From: Ktedonobacteria bacterium
GTDB taxonomy: Bacteria; Chloroflexota; Ktedonobacteria; Ktedonobacterales; JACDGC01
Direction of reading: 5' to 3'
DNA length: 33,177 nucleotides
Assembly (NCBI GenBank): GCA_027459705.1
Contig: DAIDHM010000123.1
Location: 66,538 to 99,714, forward strand
The notes under the pieces are model-generated. The model searched no databases. It was not told the DNA's origin and was given only the letters and a program-made list of their open reading frames with translations. The position numbers and the translations under genes were made by a program. How positions within the stretch are numbered: position 1 is the first letter of the stretch; each line of letters begins with the position of its first letter. Shown here piece after piece: positions 3,742 through 15,460 of the stretch.

Positions 3742-5037
3742 TCAACTTGCCGCGACGATGCCCGATCGTTCTGGATGAAAATCTGGCTCAGCGAGCGGCG
3801 CCCCAATCTGTAACGGCGAGGGACTATGGTAAAGCGCAAAAGCGATGGTGACGGCAACCACAACAGCGAAAGCGGGCATGAGCCACATGGTATGTAACTG
3901 GGCTTGCAGATCATAGATCCGTCCGCCAATATATTGACCGACACCACCACCAATCCCAAGTCCCAGCACCGAAAAACCATAGAAGGCAGCCATCGCACTG
4001 GGGGGCGCCACCTGGGCAGTGATTGCTGACATCACTGGTAAAACTGCCAGCGTGCCAAAGGTAATCAACACGACCCCGGCGATCTGCCAGGCGAAATGAT
4101 CAGCCAGGAAGACCATGACCAGACCAGCGCCAGTGACCAGAGAACTGAGCGCCATCATTGTCGTTGGTTTGAGAAATCGCTCGGCGAAGCGAACCAACGG
4201 ATATTGCAGGGGGATTGCCAGGAACGCGTTCAACCCCAGTAAGATTGCTACGCCATCTTTGCCACCCAGCCGCTGACCATCCAGCGCCACAGTCAGTGAC
4301 ATCTGTGAACCGATGATCCAGAAGCCCATCAACAATAACACGACCCGTACGTAAGCTCGGCGCGCCAATATTGCGGTGAAGGTCTGGCGTATCGAAAGTG
4401 GCGCGGTGACCTGGCCAGGTTTCGTCACCACCGTACCCTCGGGCAACAGAAAGAATGCTTGAAAAGCGACATACACGAAAAATGCTGCCGAAACCAGCGC
4501 AACGACAGGAAAACCGTAGCGGACATAGAGCACGAAAGCGATGACTGGACCGAGCGCCGCGCCGATATTGTTAATCGTCGCCTGCAGGGCGAAGATACGG
4601 ACGCGTTGCTCTACGGATGCGTAGCTGGCCAGCGCGCCAGTCCCAGCTGCATCAAAAAAAACGCCGCCAACTCCCATCAATAATGCCGAGATCAATAGTT
4701 GCGAAAATTGGGTTGAGAATCCGGCCGCGCCGAAACCAACCGCGCGGATCAGGCAGCCAATCGCAATCGACGTGCGATAGCCGATGTGGTCAGCTATGAA
4801 GCCGCCAAAGATATCTAGCCCTTGCTGAACAATCTGTCGGATACCCAGCACCAGACCGACGGTTGCGGCGGCGAAGCCAAGATGGTTCGTAAAATGCAGA
4901 GCAAAGAAGGTGATGAAAGTAAAAAATCCCGTCAAGATCAAGAATGAATTGATCAGAGAGACGACCAGCCCACGGCGGCGTTGCGCGGCAGTAAGAGGCT
5001 GCAGGCGAGAAGTCGGGGTCGAGAATATGTGCACCAT
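3742..5037 (-). CDS. MFS transporter, drug-efflux (MdtH-like) type
   Basis: A 431-residue major facilitator superfamily protein with about twelve hydrophobic segments and a central cytoplasmic loop near LLPEGTVVTKPGQVTAPLS. The loop after helix 2 reads GGFIADHIGYRTS, the MFS motif A (GxxxDxxGxR). Helix 5 carries NNIGAALGPVIAFVLY, which resembles the antiporter motif C of drug/proton exchangers. It probably exports small molecules by proton exchange; the substrate is unknown. I chose ATG 5037, which has a weak AGG at nine bases. An in-frame TTG at 5058 lacks a ribosome-binding site and lies against the hairpin at 5064-5100. The upstream gene on the same strand encodes a pseudo-receiver protein, but the hairpin between them suggests they are not simply co-transcribed. 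Confidence 0.88.
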   Translation of the reverse strand: MVHIFSTPTSRLQPLTAAQRRRGLVVSLINSFLILTGFFTFITFFALHFTNHLGFAAATVGLVLGIRQIVQQGLDIFGGFIADHIGYRTSIAIGCLIRAVGFGAAGFSTQFSQLLISALLMGVGGVFFDAAGTGALASYASVEQRVRIFALQATINNIGAALGPVIAFVLYVRYGFPVVALVSAAFFVYVAFQAFFLLPEGTVVTKPGQVTAPLSIRQTFTAILARRAYVRVVLLLMGFWIIGSQMSLTVALDGQRLGGKDGVAILLGLNAFLAIPLQYPLVRFAERFLKPTTMMALSSLVTGAGLVMVFLADHFAWQIAGVVLITFGTLAVLPVMSAITAQVAPPSAMAAFYGFSVLGLGIGGGVGQYIGGRIYDLQAQLHTMWLMPAFAVVVAVTIAFALYHSPSPLQIGAPLAEPDFHPERSGIVAAS

Positions 5038-5063
5038 CGTATGATACCTATCGAACAAGATTC

Positions 5064-5100
5064 CCAGAAAACAGAGCGTATCACACGCTCTGTTTTCTGG
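5064..5100 (-). terminator. Perfect 16-bp inverted repeat between pseudo-receiver and MFS genes
   Basis: Arms at 5064-5079 and 5085-5100 are exact reverse complements with a 5-base loop. The hairpin lies 93 bases after the end of the 5193-5702 gene and 26 bases before the MFS start, read on the minus strand. No clear T-tract follows. It could end the upstream transcript, act as an attenuator in the MFS leader, or be a protein-binding operator. Confidence 0.55.
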
Positions 5101-5192
5101 TACGTTCCTTTGATATCAGTAAAGACGGGCTGAGCAATGTCTCCGTCACGCATTCCCACGGTACTTTAGTCCTGTTTAACGGATGATGAATA

Positions 5193-5702
5193 TCATCCAA
5201 CTTTCCGGGTCGATCGGTGCTGACGCATCAGCGTCGCATCGATCCGCTGCGCCATGCGTAAGAGTGGCAGATCGTGCGGAATCAGCAAATCGAGGCCGCT
5301 GCGAGCGATCTCCTCAATCTCGCAGAAGTCGCGTCGCGAGACCCCCGCCAGCAAAATCTGGCGATCTTGCGCCGCCCGGCGCAGGAGAGAGACGAGGCGC
5401 AAGGCTGAGATATTGATCGAGGAAAGCGAATGGTCAAGGGCATCGAGGTCGAGCAAGATGACTTCGGGATCGCCGCGCTCCACCCACTCGACCGCAGTAT
5501 GCCAGGCGCGGACGGAGCGTAAGGAATACTGAACGGCGCGAAATGTGCGTTGGGCATCGCGTGTTAGGAAACTGGCGGGTTCGACGGCGAGCACCGTACG
5601 GACCTGCCGACTCATCTGGGGCAGGGTCTCGGTCGCGGGTTCAACGAGGAACAATCCATTGTTTCGCTCGCGCACGGTGGATTGGGTAAGCATGGATGCC
5701 AT
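5193..5702 (-). CDS. Degenerate receiver-domain (pseudo-receiver) protein
   Basis: A 169-residue soluble protein. After about 33 N-terminal residues the chain follows the receiver-domain pattern: a first strand VRTVLAVEPA, an amphipathic helix, the strand VILLDLDAL with Asp85 at the phospho-acceptor position, a strand ILLAGVSRRD, and a closing segment LLIPHDLPLLRMAQRI. A functional receiver has an acidic pair after the first strand and a lysine before the closing proline; here the pair is reduced to one Glu (E41) and the lysine is absent. It may therefore signal without normal phosphorylation. There is no output domain. The start is well supported: AAAGGAG lies eight bases before ATG 5702. 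No kinase gene is adjacent. The fold call rests on pattern only. Confidence 0.65.
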   Translation of the reverse strand: MASMLTQSTVRERNNGLFLVEPATETLPQMSRQVRTVLAVEPASFLTRDAQRTFRAVQYSLRSVRAWHTAVEWVERGDPEVILLDLDALDHSLSSINISALRLVSLLRRAAQDRQILLAGVSRRDFCEIEEIARSGLDLLIPHDLPLLRMAQRIDATLMRQHRSTRKVG

Positions 5703-6060
5703 GGGCGTGCTCCTTTACGATACGACAGCGTCGGCATATCGTGGATCATGGTGTGGATCTCTGCGTGGCGCCAGTGCTATAGTGCGCTTTCGCCAGGCGC
5801 GCACAATCCGTGCCGCATCGCCCATGCGTCAGAGGCAACTTCTGGCTGACGCACAAAAAGTACCAGATTGTGAGAGGCACAGCCATGGCCATACGTCCCA
5901 ACCAGAGCGGCCAAATTCCCAGAAGCCTCCATTTGAGCTGAGCGCCATCTGGGCAAGGTTGGTGGCAATGTGCGATGATGTGATAAGCAGTTATCTACCA
6001 CATTGAACGATCACGCTGCGACGCATGGTTCACGTCGCATGAACAGGAAGCTGAGCACGT
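5703..6060. other. Divergent gap (358 bases) with small inverted repeats
   Basis: No gene is supported between the divergent starts at 5702 and 6061. Small hairpins occur at 5982-5995 (GATAA arms, GCAG loop) and 6017-6039 (TGCGACG arms, 9-base spacer), the latter 21 bases before the 6061 start. A weaker pair of GCGTCAG-type arms lies at about 5825-5851. I see no convincing promoter. Confidence 0.4.
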
Positions 6061-6819
6061 ATGACGGCTGCCATTATCCGTTCGCGTGGCCAGGCCGCGA
6101 TCTTCGCAGGCATCATTCTGGCGCTGGTGGTACCTCTCTTTCGATTAGGGGCGCTGGTGCCGACGGGGTATGCTGATGCGATTGCGCAATCCGCGGCCAT
6201 AAAAGATTACAGTCCACTCTTGAGCTGGGCAGGCGGCCATCTGTCGTTGGTCGTGGTGACAGCGCTCTTGCAGGCGATGCCGTTCGTAGTGATAGTGGCG
6301 TTGCCGTACACGCTCCGCCGGGTTGTTTTCGGCGCGGATGGCCGGGTTGCGCAGACGATCGGCCTGGCGGGTATCACCGTCTACGCGCTCTTCGCCCTGA
6401 TCGATCTCATCACACTGGTTGCCTTTGCCCGACAATTTGTCCAACACCCTGCCCTCATTGGGGGGCGATTTCGCGATATGGCCATCACGGAAGCCTTGAT
6501 CAGCAATGTGCTGGGGGGGATCCTTCTGACGGTTTGGCTGGTCATCCTGAGCATCCCCATGGCGCGCATCGACGGGTTAGAACGTTGGGTGGGGTTTGCG
6601 GGCGTGTTGGGGGCGGCGTTGTTTGGTGCGAGCGCGCTCCTGACACTCTATAACCCCTCACAACCAGTAGGCTCTGTAGTTGGTTCGGCTCAGGGTTGGT
6701 TCGGAGCGTGGCTGATCCTCGTTGGCGTCCTGCTCATTCGTCGCGCACCGGCGCTTGGAGACGAGGCGGCGGAATCCGCCGAGATGCCCTCTGAACCGAT
6801 CAATACCGCCTCGCGCTGA
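6061..6819 (+). CDS. Six-helix membrane protein of unknown function
   Basis: A 252-residue hydrophobic protein with about six membrane segments: residues about 12-32 (AAIFAGIILALVVPLF), 60-85, 100-125, 145-165, 178-200 and 205-225. A charged C-terminal tail of about 25 residues follows (DEAAESAEMPSEP). I recognise no catalytic or transport motif. The overall shape recalls small uncharacterised integral membrane families such as DUF4386, but I cannot confirm that. AGGAAG lies about a dozen bases before ATG 6061, a slightly long spacing. The response regulator gene starts 57 bases downstream on the same strand, so the two could share a transcript. Confidence 0.72.
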   Translation: MTAAIIRSRGQAAIFAGIILALVVPLFRLGALVPTGYADAIAQSAAIKDYSPLLSWAGGHLSLVVVTALLQAMPFVVIVALPYTLRRVVFGADGRVAQTIGLAGITVYALFALIDLITLVAFARQFVQHPALIGGRFRDMAITEALISNVLGGILLTVWLVILSIPMARIDGLERWVGFAGVLGAALFGASALLTLYNPSQPVGSVVGSAQGWFGAWLILVGVLLIRRAPALGDEAAESAEMPSEPINTASR

Positions 6820-6876
6820 ACGCGCGGTGGATCTCACCCTGCTACCACTTGGGAATCAGATAAAGGAACCTCACAG

Positions 6877-7647
6877 ATGACGCTAGAAAAACATGAGGAG
6901 GCCCTTGATCCTCGTGGAATCACCGTCCTGGTCGTCGACGATGAGCCACGGTTGCGCGATGTCCTGCGGATGAATCTGGAGATCGAGGGCTATGCGGTCG
7001 CAGAAGCTGCAACGGGCGTCGAAGCGCTGGGACAACTGCGCCAGGCCTTACCTGATCTCATTATTCTGGATGTCATGATGCCCGATATGGATGGCTATAC
7101 CGCGCTCAAACGCATCCGGGAACTCTCCAACGTTCCAGTCATCATGCTCACCGTCCGCGACGATGAACGGGACCGTATCCGTGGGTTGGATTTGGGCGCC
7201 GACGATTATATGACGAAACCCTTCAGTACGCCCGAGTTGCTCTTACGGATCCGGGCGGTGTTGCGGCGCACCTTCCAGACCGCGCCAACACGCAAGCAAC
7301 GGATGGTCATCGACGATCATCTTGCGATTGACTTTGATCGGCGCGAAGTGGTGGTGGATGGCAAATCTATCACACTCCGGCCGACGGAGGCGCGACTCCT
7401 CTATCACCTGGTCAGCAATGCCGGTCGTCTCCTCTCGCACTCTACACTTCTTGCCAAGGTGTGGGGTCAGGAGTATCGCGATGAAGACCAGTATGTCCGT
7501 TTGTATATCACTTATCTGCGCCAGAAGATCGAGCGTGACCCAGCGCACCCGGAATATATATTGACGGAGCGCGGCATGGGCTATCGATTCAAGGAACTCA
7601 ACGACACACACAGGGGCGAGCTGTTGCCCCGTGCCGAATCCAATTGA
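6877..7647 (+). CDS. OmpR/PhoB-family response regulator
   Basis: A 256-residue two-component transcription factor. Residues about 15-131 form a receiver domain with every key position present: acidic pair D21/D22, phospho-acceptor D65 in [14 protein letters not shown]92 in VIMLT and K114 in YMTKPFS. Residues about 145-245 form the winged-helix DNA-binding domain, including [13 protein letters not shown] and the recognition and wing region ending [14 protein letters not shown]. Phosphorylation by a sensor kinase normally promotes dimerisation and promoter binding. No histidine kinase gene is present nearby, so the partner must be encoded elsewhere. AAAGGA sits ten bases before ATG 6877. The sequence resembles KdpE-like regulators, but no kdp genes are in the window, so the regulon is unknown. 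Confidence 0.93.
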
Positions 7648-7694
7648 AGTGACTGGGGAATTTGACCATCAGCATGGGCTGAGACTACATTATC

Positions 7695-7703
7695 TGGTAC
7701 AAT
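7695..7703 (+). promoter_or_regulatory. Candidate extended -10 promoter for the TlpA-type gene
   Basis: TGGTACAAT at 7695-7703 fits an extended -10 element (TG, one base, then a near-consensus hexamer). A TTGACC at 7662-7667 could instead pair with TACATT at 7686-7691 (18-base spacer). Either would place the RNA start upstream of ATG 7768 and argues against the earlier in-frame ATG at 7702, which overlaps the -10. Confidence 0.4.
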
Positions 7704-7767
7704 GCATGTGGGCCTCCGCGCTTCGGAGTCTCGTGTGTTCGCATTACGGAAACGGTGGATTCTGGCT

Positions 7768-8361
7768 ATGGCAAACGCGACACCTGTCACCTCGCAGACA
7801 ACACCACGGACGGCCCAGCGGCGATTCAGTGGCCGTCAAGCCTTTTGGCTCGGACTGGGACTGCTTGTTCTGGCATTCGGTTTCTTCAGTTGGCTACTTT
7901 TTCAGCCCAGCGGCAATAATGGCGCGATTAATCTCCTCCCTATTGGCAAAGCGGCGCCTTCATTTACTCTCACCAACAGTCAAGGGACGCCAGTCACCTT
8001 GAGCCAGTTGCGTGGTCATCCGCTGATGATCAACTTTTGGTCAACCACCTGTGGCCCGTGTCAGAGTGAGACCCCGCTCCTGCAACGCACATACACTCAA
8101 TACAAAAGTCAAGGGTTTCTTGTCCTTGGCGTTTCAGAGACTGATCCCTTACCCAGCGTCATTCAGTTCGCAAATGATTATGCGTTAACCTATCCGCTTT
8201 TACCTGACCTTCAACGTAAAGTCAATGATCGTTATGGAGTCACCGGCCTACCCGTGTCGTATTTCATCGATGCGCAAGGCATCATCCGCTATACGGTAAA
8301 TGGCGCCCTGACACCGCAGACTTTGCAGTATGGACTCCGCACGATCGGACTGTCGGCATAA
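7768..8361 (+). CDS. Membrane-anchored TlpA/ResA-type thioredoxin
   Basis: A 197-residue thiol-disulfide oxidoreductase anchored outside the membrane. Residues about 25-45 form one hydrophobic segment (FWLGLGLLVLAFGFFSWLLF). The thioredoxin-like domain starts near GKAAPSFTLTNSQG and carries the redox pair C95/C98 in STTCGPCQSE. The cis-proline loop is GVTGLPVSYFID. This TlpA/ResA/AhpC-TSA layout is typical of proteins that reduce cytochrome c apoprotein or other exported disulfides. No ccdA or cytochrome c maturation gene is adjacent. I chose ATG 7768 because GGTGGA is upstream and because an in-frame ATG at 7702 overlaps a candidate promoter and lacks a ribosome-binding site. The last codons fall in a 14-base tandem duplication. 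Confidence 0.88.
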   Translation: MANATPVTSQTTPRTAQRRFSGRQAFWLGLGLLVLAFGFFSWLLFQPSGNNGAINLLPIGKAAPSFTLTNSQGTPVTLSQLRGHPLMINFWSTTCGPCQSETPLLQRTYTQYKSQGFLVLGVSETDPLPSVIQFANDYALTYPLLPDLQRKVNDRYGVTGLPVSYFIDAQGIIRYTVNGALTPQTLQYGLRTIGLSA

Positions 8362-10732: not shown

Positions 10733-13534
10733 ATGACCACGCCCGCTGCGCTACGGGTGGCGATCGATCTCGAGACGACCGGATTACAGAGCGAGAACGA
10801 AAGTATTATCGAGATTGGCGCCGTGAAATTTCGCGGCGATGAGATCCTCGATACATTTGAGACCTTTATATCTCCTCCTCGACCCATCCCGTATCGCATT
10901 CAACGACTGACTCATATCACTCCAGCCATGCTCGTTGATGCGCCAGCAATAGCGAGTATCGCGCCGAAGCTGCGACAATTTCTCAGTGATCTCCCACTGG
11001 TCGGGCACAATGTCGGTTTCGACGCTGCATTCTTGCGGCGGCAACAGATCGCGCAGACCAACCCACTCCTTGACACATTTGAGTTAGCGTCCATTTTGTT
11101 GCCCGATCTCACGAACTATACCCTTGAACACGTCGCCGCGACGCTCGGCTTCTCCGCTCCCATCCATCATCGCGCGCTGGCCGACGCCCAGCTCTCACGC
11201 GAGGTCTTTCTGGCGCTCGAAGCGCGCGTCCGCGATCTGCCGGATCCACTCTTGAATACGCTGTGCGCGCTGGCGCCGGGAGCCAAACTGGCCATGCTTG
11301 GTTTCCTGCGGCGCGAACAACAAGCCCGGGGCATTCACCCGACAGGGGGGATCGCCGCAACCAGCTCACTTGGCGCTGCTTTTCAGAATCAGCTGCAGGT
11401 CAACCCCGCCATCCTGGGGACACAGCTGGCCACCCTTACCACGCCACTGCCCAACACCCTGGCCGCAGGGTCAACGCCGCCGTCGGCAACAATCGACACA
11501 CTGGCGCTCGCTGCGCCCATCCAGAGCGCACTGGAACAACATCAGACCCTGGTAGCGCAGATCCCACCCCAGCCAGAACAAGTCGATGTGGTCTTGCGGC
11601 CCGCACTGGAATGGGTAATCGCGACCGGCCAGCGGCTCGTCATCGCCGCCGCCTCGGCCGCCAGCGCCCGGGCGCTGGCACAGACGCATCTTCCGCGCGT
11701 CCTGGCCAGTCTCACACCCACCGAACCGCTGACTCAGGCGATCCTCTTCGAGCCCCGCGACTACCTCTGCACTCATCGCTGGTATGGACCAGCACGCGAA
11801 GCGTCTTCATTGGCGACCGATACCTTGCGAGGGTTAGCGAAATTAACGGTCTGGATTCAGACCACACAATCGGGAAGTCGTGACAGCCTCAACCTTGGCC
11901 CCACCGAACAGGTGGCCTGGGAGATCGTTCATGCCAGTGATACCGCATTAGAACTCCCACAATGTACGTACCGCGATCGTGGCTGGTGCTTTCCGCGCCG
12001 AGCCCGCGCTGCGGCCGAAACCGCGCGCATTGTCATCACCACGCAGGCCGCACTGCTTGGCGCGCATAAAGGGAGCCGCGACCAGGAATCAACGTATGTC
12101 CCCTCTGCCGATGGCTATCTCATCCTGGACGCCCAGTTGTTAGAAGATCGCCTGCTAGCGCAAGCTTCCTGGACCTTGGACCAGGAGACGTTGCTGGGTG
12201 ATCTCGATATGCTCTATACCCGCGATGGCCAGCAATTGCGCGGTCTACTGGCGCTGGCGGCCGAGGCTGTCCCCGGCGCTCGTCTCGCGTCCTGGGGACA
12301 ACAAGTCACCCGCGCCACCAGTGCGATCACCGACTTCATTGTGGCCTTAGGCGCACTGGCAACCGAAGCATATAACGACGATCAAGCCGCTGAGGCCGGT
12401 GGACCATTGCGGCTTGATAATAATGCCCGCACGCTGGGCGCCTGGGGACCGGTAGGCGACGCCTGGAGCGCGCTGGATCGCCGGGTGACCATGCTTGCCG
12501 ACACCCTGGCGCAGCTTGTGAAGGACTTGCGGCACACTCCGAGCGCAGGATCACTTGGTCTAGAATTGCACTCGGCTGCTCAACGCTTGCGACAGATCTT
12601 GCGTTACGGTCGTGAGAGCATCGCGCAACCACGCGCGGGCTGGGTGTATTGGATCCGAACATCCCAAGCCAATGGCCATCGCGGGCGAAACGGGCAGATG
12701 ACCAGCAGCGAGGGCGCATCACTATTCGGAGCACCCGCGCAGCTCTCGCGTGATACCGGCGCTGCCATTCAAGGATTGGGAGGCGGTGTCGTGCTCGCCG
12801 GGACAGCCCTCGCGGTGGATGGTCACTTCGATGTGGCCATCGAGCGACTGGGCCTGCCTGCCACTACACCAACGGCACTCGTAACGGCCGATTTCACGGC
12901 GCAATCCCTGGTTTTGATCCCTACCGATGTCCCGGAACCGAATGCGCCAGCCTACCAGCGCACGCTCAATGAAGCCATCGTTCAGGTGGCGACAGCGTTA
13001 GACGGAAATACCGTTGTGTTATTGGCGTCGCATACGGCGCTACGCACCACATATAGCGCCATCAAACCACTATTGGAAGCGCGGGATATCATGATTCTGG
13101 CACAAGGCATTGATGGGTCATTGCGCCAGTTGTGGCAGAATTATCGCACGCAATCGCGAGTGGTGATCCTGGGCGCTGGCAATATGTGGGAAGGATGGGA
13201 GTCCGATGGCGCCCGCCCACGTTGTCTCTTCGTGGCGCGCCTCCCTCTGCCCGCCTTGAACGAACCGCTCCTGGCGGCCCGCGCCGAGCTCTACGCGGAC
13301 TCTATGCAACAGTTTGTCGTGCCCCAGGCAGCGATCCGCCTACGGCTCGCGCTCAACCGCATGGCCTGGGAACACGACCGACGCAATGTCGTAATCATCT
13401 ACGATCGCCGCATTCAGACAAAAACCTATGGCATGAGCATCTTACATACCTTGCCGCACGTGACCGTACGTGACGAGAGCGTGACCATGTTGGGAAATAC
13501 CGCTCGGGATTGGATCGACTCATCAGCCATGTAA
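10733..13534 (+). CDS. DnaQ-DinG fusion: intact DEDDh exonuclease, degenerate helicase
   Basis: A 933-residue fusion. Residues about 8-165 form a DnaQ-type 3'-5' exonuclease with all DEDDh residues: D12 and E14 in VAIDLETTGL, D97 in GHNVGFDAAFL, and H146/D151 in HHRALADA. Residues about 255-930 follow the XPD/DinG helicase pattern, including YLC (C346), the ARAAAETARIVIT block, AVDGHFD, ILAQGIDGSLRQL, MWEGWE and ARLPLPAL. The catalytic motifs are gone. The Walker A region (about 274-284) reads VAQIPPQPEQV with no GKT/S. The DEAH box is LDAQ at 465-468. The motif VI QxxGRxxR is replaced by a stretch around LALNRMAWEHD. Only three of the usual four Fe-S cysteines are visible (C346, C411, C419). 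I infer a nuclease with a non-hydrolysing DNA-binding scaffold. ATG 10733 has GAAGG ten bases upstream; the earlier in-frame TTG 10715 overlaps it. Confidence 0.88.
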   Translation: MTTPAALRVAIDLETTGLQSENESIIEIGAVKFRGDEILDTFETFISPPRPIPYRIQRLTHITPAMLVDAPAIASIAPKLRQFLSDLPLVGHNVGFDAAFLRRQQIAQTNPLLDTFELASILLPDLTNYTLEHVAATLGFSAPIHHRALADAQLSREVFLALEARVRDLPDPLLNTLCALAPGAKLAMLGFLRREQQARGIHPTGGIAATSSLGAAFQNQLQVNPAILGTQLATLTTPLPNTLAAGSTPPSATIDTLALAAPIQSALEQHQTLVAQIPPQPEQVDVVLRPALEWVIATGQRLVIAAASAASARALAQTHLPRVLASLTPTEPLTQAILFEPRDYLCTHRWYGPAREASSLATDTLRGLAKLTVWIQTTQSGSRDSLNLGPTEQVAWEIVHASDTALELPQCTYRDRGWCFPRRARAAAETARIVITTQAALLGAHKGSRDQESTYVPSADGYLILDAQLLEDRLLAQASWTLDQETLLGDLDMLYTRDGQQLRGLLALAAEAVPGARLASWGQQVTRATSAITDFIVALGALATEAYNDDQAAEAGGPLRLDNNARTLGAWGPVGDAWSALDRRVTMLADTLAQLVKDLRHTPSAGSLGLELHSAAQRLRQILRYGRESIAQPRAGWVYWIRTSQANGHRGRNGQMTSSEGASLFGAPAQLSRDTGAAIQGLGGGVVLAGTALAVDGHFDVAIERLGLPATTPTALVTADFTAQSLVLIPTDVPEPNAPAYQRTLNEAIVQVATALDGNTVVLLASHTALRTTYSAIKPLLEARDIMILAQGIDGSLRQLWQNYRTQSRVVILGAGNMWEGWESDGARPRCLFVARLPLPALNEPLLAARAELYADSMQQFVVPQAAIRLRLALNRMAWEHDRRNVVIIYDRRIQTKTYGMSILHTLPHVTVRDESVTMLGNTARDWIDSSAM

Positions 13535-13626: not shown

Positions 13627-13745
13627 TTCGCCTGCCTTACCCTGGAATCTCAGTCGCACTGCTGCATATAGTGGAGAGTACCTGCCTGTGTACTCAACTA
13701 TTGGTGAGGTACACGGCGCAAATCTGAAAGATAGGGGTGGGAGCG

Positions 13746-14762
13746 ATGACACAGGTCGCGGATCTTGGCGAATTTAGCCTGATTGCTCGTTTGACGGCAT
13801 CGCTATCCACACCGCCGGATGTCATCGCCGGGGTGGGTGATGACGCGGCTATATTGGATATTCAGGGCGCCATGCTGCTCGCGACATGCGATGCGCAGGT
13901 GCAGGATACACACTTTCGTCTGGATCGCTCCGCGCCACAGGATATTGGCCGTAAAGCACTAGCGGTAAATATCAGTGATTGCGCCGCAATGGGAGCGCAT
14001 CCTCGCTTCGCCTTGATCTCGCTCCTGCTCCCACCGACGCTGGAGGTCGCAACCCTGGAGGGGATCTACGACGGGATGCGTCAGGAGGCCGAGCGATTTG
14101 ACGTGGCGATCATTGGCGGCAACATCGCGCGCCTCGCCGAACGGCTTGTGCTTGACATCACTATGTTAGGACTGGCAGATGAGCGCCGCGTCCTGCGTCG
14201 CCAGGGCGCGCAGCCCGGCGATGCGATCTTCGTCACTGGCACACTTGGACTAGCTGGCGCGGGGCTGCTGGCACAAGAAGACCCTACCCTTTCCGTGCCA
14301 CGAGATACACGCCAACGCGCTCTCCAGGCCCAACAGCGGCCAGAGCCACGCGTGGCGGCTGGCCTTTGGTTGGCGGCACACGGCGCAACAGCAGCAATTG
14401 ATGTCAGCGATGGTTTTCTCGCTGATCTGGAGCATTTATGCGAGGCGAGCGGAGTTCAAGCGGAGATCGCCATCGAAAGCCTCCCCATCGCCCACGCGAC
14501 ACGGACGATCGCCCAGGCAGCAGGGGTCGATCCGGTGGAACTGGCACTGTCAGCCGGCGAAGATTATGAACTGATCTTCACCGTTCCCATACATGCCGCA
14601 TCCGATCTCACGCGACAACTGGCAGAGGCAACTGGGACTACCGCAACCCAGATCGGCTTCTGCGCGGAGGGTGCGCCACAGGTGATGATCCGTGGGAATA
14701 CGCGCTCCGCGAACACGCCAACTGGATGGGATCATATGCGTGGACCTATGGCCCGCAATTGA
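13746..14762 (+). CDS. thiL: Thiamine-monophosphate kinase
   Basis: A 338-residue cytoplasmic enzyme that phosphorylates thiamine monophosphate with ATP to make the cofactor thiamine diphosphate, the last step of the pathway. Family marks are GVGDDAAIL near residues 28-36, the CDAQVQDTHF metal and substrate loop, GRKALAVNISDCAAMGA, GGNIARLAERL, GDAIFVTGTLG, the AAIDVSDGFLADL metal-binding stretch and ALSAGEDYELIFT near the C-terminus. Length is normal for ThiL. AGGGG lies eight bases before ATG 13746; an in-frame GTG at 13737 is less well placed. The following PhoU-like gene starts 14 bases after the stop, suggesting one transcript. The leader contains a small GAGTAC/GTACTC hairpin (13676-13695), but I see no TPP riboswitch core. 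Confidence 0.96.
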   Translation: MTQVADLGEFSLIARLTASLSTPPDVIAGVGDDAAILDIQGAMLLATCDAQVQDTHFRLDRSAPQDIGRKALAVNISDCAAMGAHPRFALISLLLPPTLEVATLEGIYDGMRQEAERFDVAIIGGNIARLAERLVLDITMLGLADERRVLRRQGAQPGDAIFVTGTLGLAGAGLLAQEDPTLSVPRDTRQRALQAQQRPEPRVAAGLWLAAHGATAAIDVSDGFLADLEHLCEASGVQAEIAIESLPIAHATRTIAQAAGVDPVELALSAGEDYELIFTVPIHAASDLTRQLAEATGTTATQIGFCAEGAPQVMIRGNTRSANTPTGWDHMRGPMARN

Positions 14763-14776
14763 AAGAGGATACTTAC

Positions 14777-15460
14777 ATGCAGAACATTGATGATCGGCTT
14801 GACATTGAAGTCCGCGCACTTACCAAAAGTGTCGTAGAGCTGAGTATATATATCGAAGAGCATTTCAAAAATGCTGTCGCCCAGCTCTTCACCCGCGATT
14901 GGGTCAGTGGCTACTTTCCAATCACCCCGGATATCTCCCCGATTACGCTCAATGGGCAAGCGTTCCAATTGCTCAGCCTCTGGGCGCCCTCGGGTGAGCA
15001 ATTTCGCACCATCATGATCATGCAAAAAGCCTGCAAAGATCTCGAGAGCCTCCTCGCGCTTGTTAATTCGATGGGTGAGCACGCTCGTATGCTTGACCGC
15101 GATGTGGAATATGAATTGGCGGCGCTCCCCTCCGAAGAACGCCAGGGACTGTACCGGATCATCAACCTGGCATATATGCAATTGCGCGGGTGCACCATCG
15201 CACTCAACACGTGCCAGAGCAGCTTCGCGCAGCGCGTTATCGAGCAGGATGGTGAACTGGATCTCGCTTGTCTCCGTATGCAGACTGCGCTGCAAGGGCT
15301 ACTGGAACTGGATGTCACGCGCGCCGTCCCCATCAATTACATCAAGCTCATTATCAGTAACATTGAACGGATGGGGAATTTTGTCACCCATATATGTCAA
15401 GGTATCCAGACCATCCCCGCATATCAAGGCGAAGTCGGCGCCTCGGCCTGGGCGCATTAG
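14777..15460 (+). CDS. PhoU-like helical protein
   Basis: A 227-residue, almost wholly alpha-helical, cytoplasmic protein. Its layout suggests two three-helix bundles, as in PhoU. The N-terminal part begins RLDIEVRALTKSVVELSIYI, and the final helix carries NIERMGNFVTHICQGI, which resembles the PhoU signature E-R-x-x-D/N-x-x-x-x-I. PhoU proteins restrain phosphate uptake and the PhoR kinase, and related proteins act with Na/phosphate cotransporters. No pst, phoR or phoB gene is nearby. The middle segment (about residues 40-75, with GYFPITPDISPITLNGQ) is unusual for the family. AGAGGA lies about eight bases before ATG 14777. The gene follows thiL by 14 bases and its TAG overlaps the stop codon of the convergent DUF402 gene. 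Confidence 0.65.
   Translation: MQNIDDRLDIEVRALTKSVVELSIYIEEHFKNAVAQLFTRDWVSGYFPITPDISPITLNGQAFQLLSLWAPSGEQFRTIMIMQKACKDLESLLALVNSMGEHARMLDRDVEYELAALPSEERQGLYRIINLAYMQLRGCTIALNTCQSSFAQRVIEQDGELDLACLRMQTALQGLLELDVTRAVPINYIKLIISNIERMGNFVTHICQGIQTIPAYQGEVGASAWAH

Follow-up and report, generated by a model that had tools for sequence, protein, structure and literature searches.

In the Ktedonobacteria, the motor of an ExoDinG protein has been dismantled while its exonuclease domain was kept. A recognisable copy of this DnaQ(DEDDh)-DinG fusion is present in all 47 Ktedonobacteria genomes examined (26 genera, four families), the same set of losses is found in 44 of 44 full-length class copies and, as judged from a phylogenetic tree, the motor motifs were lost once, in an ancestor of the class. 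We propose, with a probability of roughly 0.7, that the protein acts as an ATP-independent 3'-5' exonuclease, for which the dead helicase serves as a passive single-strand clamp. With only the motor removed by evolution, and only once, the class amounts to a natural separation-of-function experiment, in which the conserved features of the proteins show which properties of the helicase body the nuclease requires without ATP. Automatic annotation of these genes with labels such as "ATP-dependent DNA helicase DinG" would be misleading.

The gene was found in a stretch of 33,177 nucleotides from a Ktedonobacteria bacterium, referred to here as the window. The open reading frame runs on the forward strand from an ATG at 10733 to a stop codon ending at 13534, and its 933 codons (10733-13531) are uninterrupted and of ordinary codon use (GC3 0.66, CAI-like index 0.72; other window genes 0.65-0.77), as the first-pass annotation of this DNA had described. 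The set of catalytic DEDDh residues listed in that annotation was also found to be complete (Table 1) and, together with homology and fold over the full length of MD1, Fe-S, Arch and MD2, this places the product among the "ExoDinG" type fusions. Pfam recognises RNase_T (2.8e-31, residues 9-159) and Helicase_C_2 (2.4e-19, residues 749-909) in the window protein. Pfam DEAD and DEAD_2 match neither this protein nor the two other class members tested, whereas both match an intact Chloroflexota relative and the stand-alone DinG of the same genome. The NCBIfam model PRK08074 (DinG) spans residues 9-927 (9.1e-94); the window protein scores far below the NCBIfam cut-offs (PRK08074, 315 vs 789 bits; TIGR01407, 283 vs 547.7 bits), as do the two intact Chloroflexota relatives tested (615-701 and 489-529 bits, respectively).

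Table 1. Features of the fusion gene and its product; positions are those of the window.
Feature	Position	Strand	Basis
ATPase-less ExoDinG gene, 933 aa + stop	10733..13534	+	ORF; ATG agrees with start of relatives
DEDDh 3'-5' exonuclease domain (putative activity), ~residues 1-167; D12, E14, D97, H146, D151	10733..11233	+	Pfam RNase_T
Motor lobe MD1, first part (~256-340), ATP-binding residues gone, fold kept	11498..11752	+	Identity comparison, AF2
Lost Walker A site, PPQPEQV, residues 278-284 (GTGTGKS in relatives)	11564..11584	+	Alignment
Fe-S domain, ~341-447, three of four cysteines (C346, C411, C419), class-specific H348	11753..12073	+	Alignment
T437 instead of VNH-motif Asn	12041..12043	+	Alignment
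Lost DEAH box site, LDAQ, residues 465-468	12125..12136	+	Alignment
Arch domain, ~501-640	12233..12652	+	Alignment position, helical pattern in AF2 model
Motor lobe MD2, ~691-931, retained ssDNA-binding lobe	12803..13525	+	Pfam Helicase_C_2, residue mapping, dN/dS
Lost motif VI, LALNRMAW, residues 872-879, W879 for second Arg	13346..13369	+	Alignment

The positions of the motor motifs were read from an alignment with 80 intact relatives. In this alignment, P279, E282, Q283 and V284 occupy the T, G, K and S positions of GTGTGKS, which confirms that the Walker A motif is lost, and L465-D466-A467-Q468 lies at the DEAH box. The first-pass annotation was also right in reading LDAQ as the replacement of DEAH, to which we add that an acidic residue, D466, is retained at the position of the catalytic Glu, the Asp position being without one. 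Its statement that the arginines of motif VI are missing stands for one of the two: QGFGRLIR has become LALNRMAW, with L872 for Gln, A873 for Gly and W879 for the second Arg, but the first Arg is still there as R876. None of the three signatures of an active SF2 XPD/DinG motor, that is Walker A GxGK[ST], the DExH box and motif VI QxxGRxxR, is present in the protein. A working Walker A or DEAH motif elsewhere in the chain, which the annotation had named as grounds for rejecting its reading, was not found: the window chain has no match to G-x-G-K-[ST] or DE[AC]H, and alternatives are likewise absent from the full-length class proteins. An alignment artefact was ruled out, since the sequence flanking each motif aligns on both sides in multiple alignments and the Pfam DEAD and DEAD_2 models separate the intact proteins tested from the class members tested. 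The Fe-S domain has, as first noted, three cysteines rather than four. C346, C411 and C419 are found in 44 of 44 class rows, the class members inspected lack the fourth, which would precede C411, and H348, within the first cysteine motif, is present in 44 of 44 class rows and is usually Arg outside the class. Three cysteines have been considered sufficient for cluster binding (PMC11981726).

A search with the window protein alone returned no relatives, whereas 80 loci were recovered with the family alignment as query. The comparison set consisted of 44 full-length class rows (from about 39 distinct genomes, some being represented from two collections) and 80 full-length proteins from other Chloroflexota. 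Outside the class, the DExH box and motif VI are kept in 80 of 80 homologues. The Walker A Lys is found in 0 of 44 class rows and in 79 of 80 proteins outside; the Asp position of the DEAH box is Leu or Val in all 44 class rows (L465 in 43) and Asp in 80 of 80 outside, and its Glu position is Asp (D466) in 42 of 44 vs Glu in 80 of 80. At the VNH motif, Thr (T437; 44/44) stands against Asn (80/80), and at the second Arg of motif VI, Trp (43/43) against Arg (80/80). The catalytic DEDDh residues are present in every class row that covers them and in all 80 outside proteins. Relatives with the same losses, the search for which had been suggested from the outset, are the close ones, and only relatives from outside the class are intact; damage to a single gene copy is ruled out by the class-wide sharing of the losses and by the dN/dS values given below. 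Among the proteins counted as intact outside the class, one from a Centralia MAG assigned to Chloroflexi (L109) has a damaged Walker A motif (MPGTGRS) and an altered motif VI (QGFDRLIR), possibly an independent loss in progress or an assembly error.

A maximum-likelihood tree of 54 proteins, calculated with the motif columns excluded, was unrooted and restricted to Chloroflexota. In this tree the dismantled proteins form one clade on one side of a single branch, set against the other Chloroflexota ExoDinG proteins (SH-aLRT 100; one change, seen in 0 of 500 shuffles). Intact motor motifs are the general condition among XPD/DinG proteins. Because a single branch of the unrooted tree separates the two states and the motifs are general in the family, we place the loss in an ancestor of the class.

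The ExoDinG proteins of S. aureus (PDB 8ZEF/9II8), B. subtilis and L. monocytogenes share with the class proteins the DEDDh-MD1/Fe-S/Arch/MD2 layout, the fold and the exonuclease residues. They differ in their motors: B. subtilis DinG is a single-stranded DNA-dependent ATPase that uses the Walker A Lys, L. monocytogenes DinG has both the P-loop and the DEAH box, and S. aureus DinG unwinds DNA, whereas the class proteins are without the ATPase residues, P-loop and DEAH box included. Conversely, the S. aureus and B. subtilis proteins lack the Fe-S cysteines, three of which are kept in the class. The description of S. aureus DinG as a helicase that became a nuclease, with which the window protein had initially been compared, is outdated, as the enzyme unwinds DNA at suitable ATP (PMC12345164); for ExoDinG proteins, helicase activity has been reported both as absent and as present (PMC11981726, PMC12345164). 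Ktedonobacterales are listed among the bacteria with ExoDinG in both of these 2025 papers, and we found no mention of the loss of ATPase residues in this order in their main texts. There are precedents both for an ATPase-less DinG body and for an inactivated helicase that accompanies a nuclease. sDinG of the Nostocales and related cyanobacterial orders is likewise a DinG-like body without a credible ATPase site (PMC11981726), but it has no exonuclease and no Fe-S domain, its Arch domain is short and it belongs to a different subgroup. In AddB and RecC, a motor-less helicase fold holds or reads single-stranded DNA beside a nuclease (PMC4824097); these proteins, however, are SF1 rather than SF2/XPD, act in multi-subunit motors with Chi recognition and work with a PD-(D/E)XK rather than a DEDDh nuclease.

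Estimates of dN/dS were obtained by the Nei-Gojobori method from close pairs with dS from about 0.1 to 1.3; distant pairs (whole-gene values 0.44-0.57, such as L004-L019) were set aside, as a dS of about 1 or above is unreliable with biased composition. For the whole gene, dN/dS was mostly 0.05-0.13 in close pairs, with one pair at 0.18. By part, it was 0-0.07 in the exonuclease, 0-0.08 in the Fe-S domain, with the exception of one pair (L023-L027) at 0.24, and 0-0.09 in MD2. In most pairs, constraint was weakest in the first part of MD1 (MD1a), the former site of the Walker A motif (dN/dS about 0.08-0.5; above 1 in one pair, with few sites). The gene is under purifying selection, which is strongest in the exonuclease, Fe-S and MD2 parts, and the ATP lobe alone is relaxed. 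When class pairs and intact pairs were compared at matched exonuclease identity (0.50-0.55), identity was 0.25 vs 0.61 in MD1a, 0.24 vs 0.44 in the DEAH segment, 0.42 vs 0.50 in the Fe-S domain and 0.47 vs 0.56 in MD2, so that identity fell mainly in the ATP lobe, in the DEAH segment and in the stretch preceding MD2. Taken together, the regional dN/dS values and these matched identities indicate that the ATP lobe was released from constraint, whereas the nuclease and the parts that bind the strand remained under it. At seven sites, four of which belong to helicase motifs (T437, L465, D466 and W879), the class and the outside proteins are fixed for different residues, and 32 sites gained constraint within the class, 15 of which lie in MD2. 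On the basis of these sites, the pattern reads as remodelling, not as random damage. Class-wide conservation, single origin and the low dN/dS in the nuclease, Fe-S and MD2 parts support the suggestion that the loss looked selected rather than decayed.

The AlphaFold2 model of the window protein (72 homologues; pLDDT 91.2, pTM 0.92), in which most of the first part of MD1 (~256-340) has a pLDDT of about 90-98, predicts that the entire helicase body folds. The structure prediction that had been called for thus returns a full DinG fold, with the S. aureus DinG-ssDNA complexes (9ii8/8zef) as the best Foldseek matches in the PDB, followed by E. coli DinG, CasDinG and XPD. In the crystals of the S. 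aureus complex, 7 nt are held by MD2 and 4 nt by the Exo domain, and unwinding by this enzyme requires K801, F804, F823, R858 and Y864 (PMC12345164). When these residues were mapped by pairwise alignment, the equivalents of K801, R858 and Y864 in the class were R836 (43/43), R893 (43/43) and Y899 (38 of 41 rows covered), and the equivalents of the two Phe residues were mostly not Phe (M/F/L839 and L/Q/M/I858). At the mapped DNA-contact positions, the polar contacts and the Tyr are, by alignment, kept in the class, and the two Phe mostly are not. Since single Ala mutants of F804 and F823 in S. aureus DinG bind DNA less well and do not unwind it (PMC12345164), the grip on the strand may be weaker or different in the class proteins. 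A role of the helicase body as a DNA clamp would fit both the S. aureus DinG-ssDNA crystals and the retention of R836, R893 and Y899.

We hypothesize that an ancestor of the Ktedonobacteria gave up ATP binding and hydrolysis in its ExoDinG, leaving a class-specific descendant that would trim single strands of DNA and/or RNA as an ATP-independent 3'-5' exonuclease. MD2, the Arch domain and the Fe-S domain, the latter possibly still binding metal, would form a passive channel that keeps hold of the strand and guides its 3' end to the DEDDh site, in the manner seen in the crystals of S. aureus DinG with ssDNA. The exonuclease activity is putative and is suggested by the catalytic residues and by the S. 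aureus, B. subtilis and L. monocytogenes DinG proteins; motor mutants of two of these, K290A in B. subtilis DinG (PMC12525004) and E465A in L. monocytogenes DinG (PMC12774634), retain exonuclease activity. The effect of ATP on the nuclease that is seen with S. aureus DinG would be expected to be gone, except for metal chelation, and unwinding would be left to a separate, intact DinG/YoaA-like helicase of the same genomes. Such a stand-alone protein was detected at E <= 1e-69 in 42 of the 47 class genomes; fragmentary assemblies are among the other five. Of 30 copies examined, 27 match the consensus search at all three motor motifs; the remaining three match DEAH and motif VI, one of these hits being without its N-terminus. 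The copy of the window's own genome (G000:C234, L003) has an XPD/DinG body, as does the fusion, but no exonuclease, and its Walker A, DEAH and QxxGRxxR motifs are intact. Judging by these motifs, the paralogue could cover unwinding.

The principal alternative is that structured or unprocessed RNA, such as rRNA precursors, is the main substrate and that the body binds RNA 3' ends. We consider this possible, though clearly the less likely reading: the exonuclease of L. monocytogenes DinG removes unprocessed rRNA, an activity spared by a DEAH-box mutation (PMC12774634), and S. aureus DinG degrades single-stranded RNA too (PMC12525004, PMC11981726), but no feature of the sequence or the neighbourhood discriminates between RNA and DNA as substrate, and the commonest neighbour, a Ham1-type nucleotide pyrophosphatase, points to general nucleotide housekeeping. 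We regard it as unlikely that a sequence or lesion in the passing strand is recognised by the dead helicase, which then switches the nuclease, much as Chi is recognised by AddB and RecC, whose inactivated SF1 domains bind it at the old single-stranded DNA tracking site (PMC4824097). The fixation of former motif positions to new residues (T437, L465, D466, W879) and the gain of conserved features in the body would suit this idea, but the gained constraint fits a simple clamp too, and a partner motor is not fused to the protein. We think it similarly improbable that, throughout the class, an XPD-family helicase became a non-motor strand reader in control of the 3'-5' exonuclease fused to it, its Fe-S site having been rebuilt from three Cys and possibly H348; if true, AddB and RecC, whose dead helicases read Chi, would have their equivalent in SF2.

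A pseudo-helicase that binds the intact paralogue or the replisome, with the nuclease riding along, is doubtful as well. The paralogue is present in nearly every genome, and E. coli YoaA is described as working with a clamp-loader subunit (PMC4636137), but fusion and paralogue lie on different contigs in the window's genome. That unrelated residues still bind nucleotide and drive movement seems very improbable to us: the RecA-like folds are mostly retained, as is E276, the residue at which strand 1 ends, but the Lys and Ser of the P-loop, both DE residues, the Gln and second Arg of motif VI and the VNH Asn have changed together, and, when compared with intact relatives, the class proteins are least conserved in the ATP lobe. 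Least credible is decay, in which the gene is being lost and the motif changes are neutral damage. The relaxed constraint in the ATP lobe would agree with decay, as would split ORFs of the fusion in two genomes (Dictyobacter kobayashii L046 and G001 L017), but for the class as a whole decay is refuted by the retention of the fusion in all 47 genomes, by dN/dS values well under 1 for the nuclease, the Fe-S domain and MD2 and by the fixation of motif positions to new, not random, residues. In D. kobayashii (5001-5858, 5765-8071), a frameshift splits the fusion in the exonuclease-helicase linker at a C/T-rich stretch, either through a sequencing error or as a true split.

Among the stand-alone paralogues, those of family f2 (L160-L174) are mostly open frames of 1040-1147 aa, compared with ~665 aa in most members from other families; a kinase-like C-terminal domain has been described in one Ktedonobacterales DinG (PMC11981726). 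Further DinG-like matches lie in very large frames of 1856, 1858 and 1489 aa (G006:C47, G038:C1:2924280-2926436 and G035:C222, respectively), which are neither the fusion nor the stand-alone paralogue. In three of the four families (f2, f3 and f4), a gene for a Ham1/RdgB-type nucleotide pyrophosphatase lies 29-185 bp upstream of the fusion on the same strand (for example L143:7254-7940), and in one intact relative from outside the class (L129) this gene overlaps the fusion by 4 bp. The pairing is absent from the window's family, and the Ham1 gene of the window's genome is on another contig. We take this neighbour as a hint of nucleotide or nucleic-acid housekeeping and no more. Downstream of the fusion, the window contains an AIR-synthase-family gene followed by a PhoU-domain gene that overlaps it by 37 bases (13737-15460), and genes of these two kinds also follow the fusion in a member of the same family (L135) and in one of f3 (L140).
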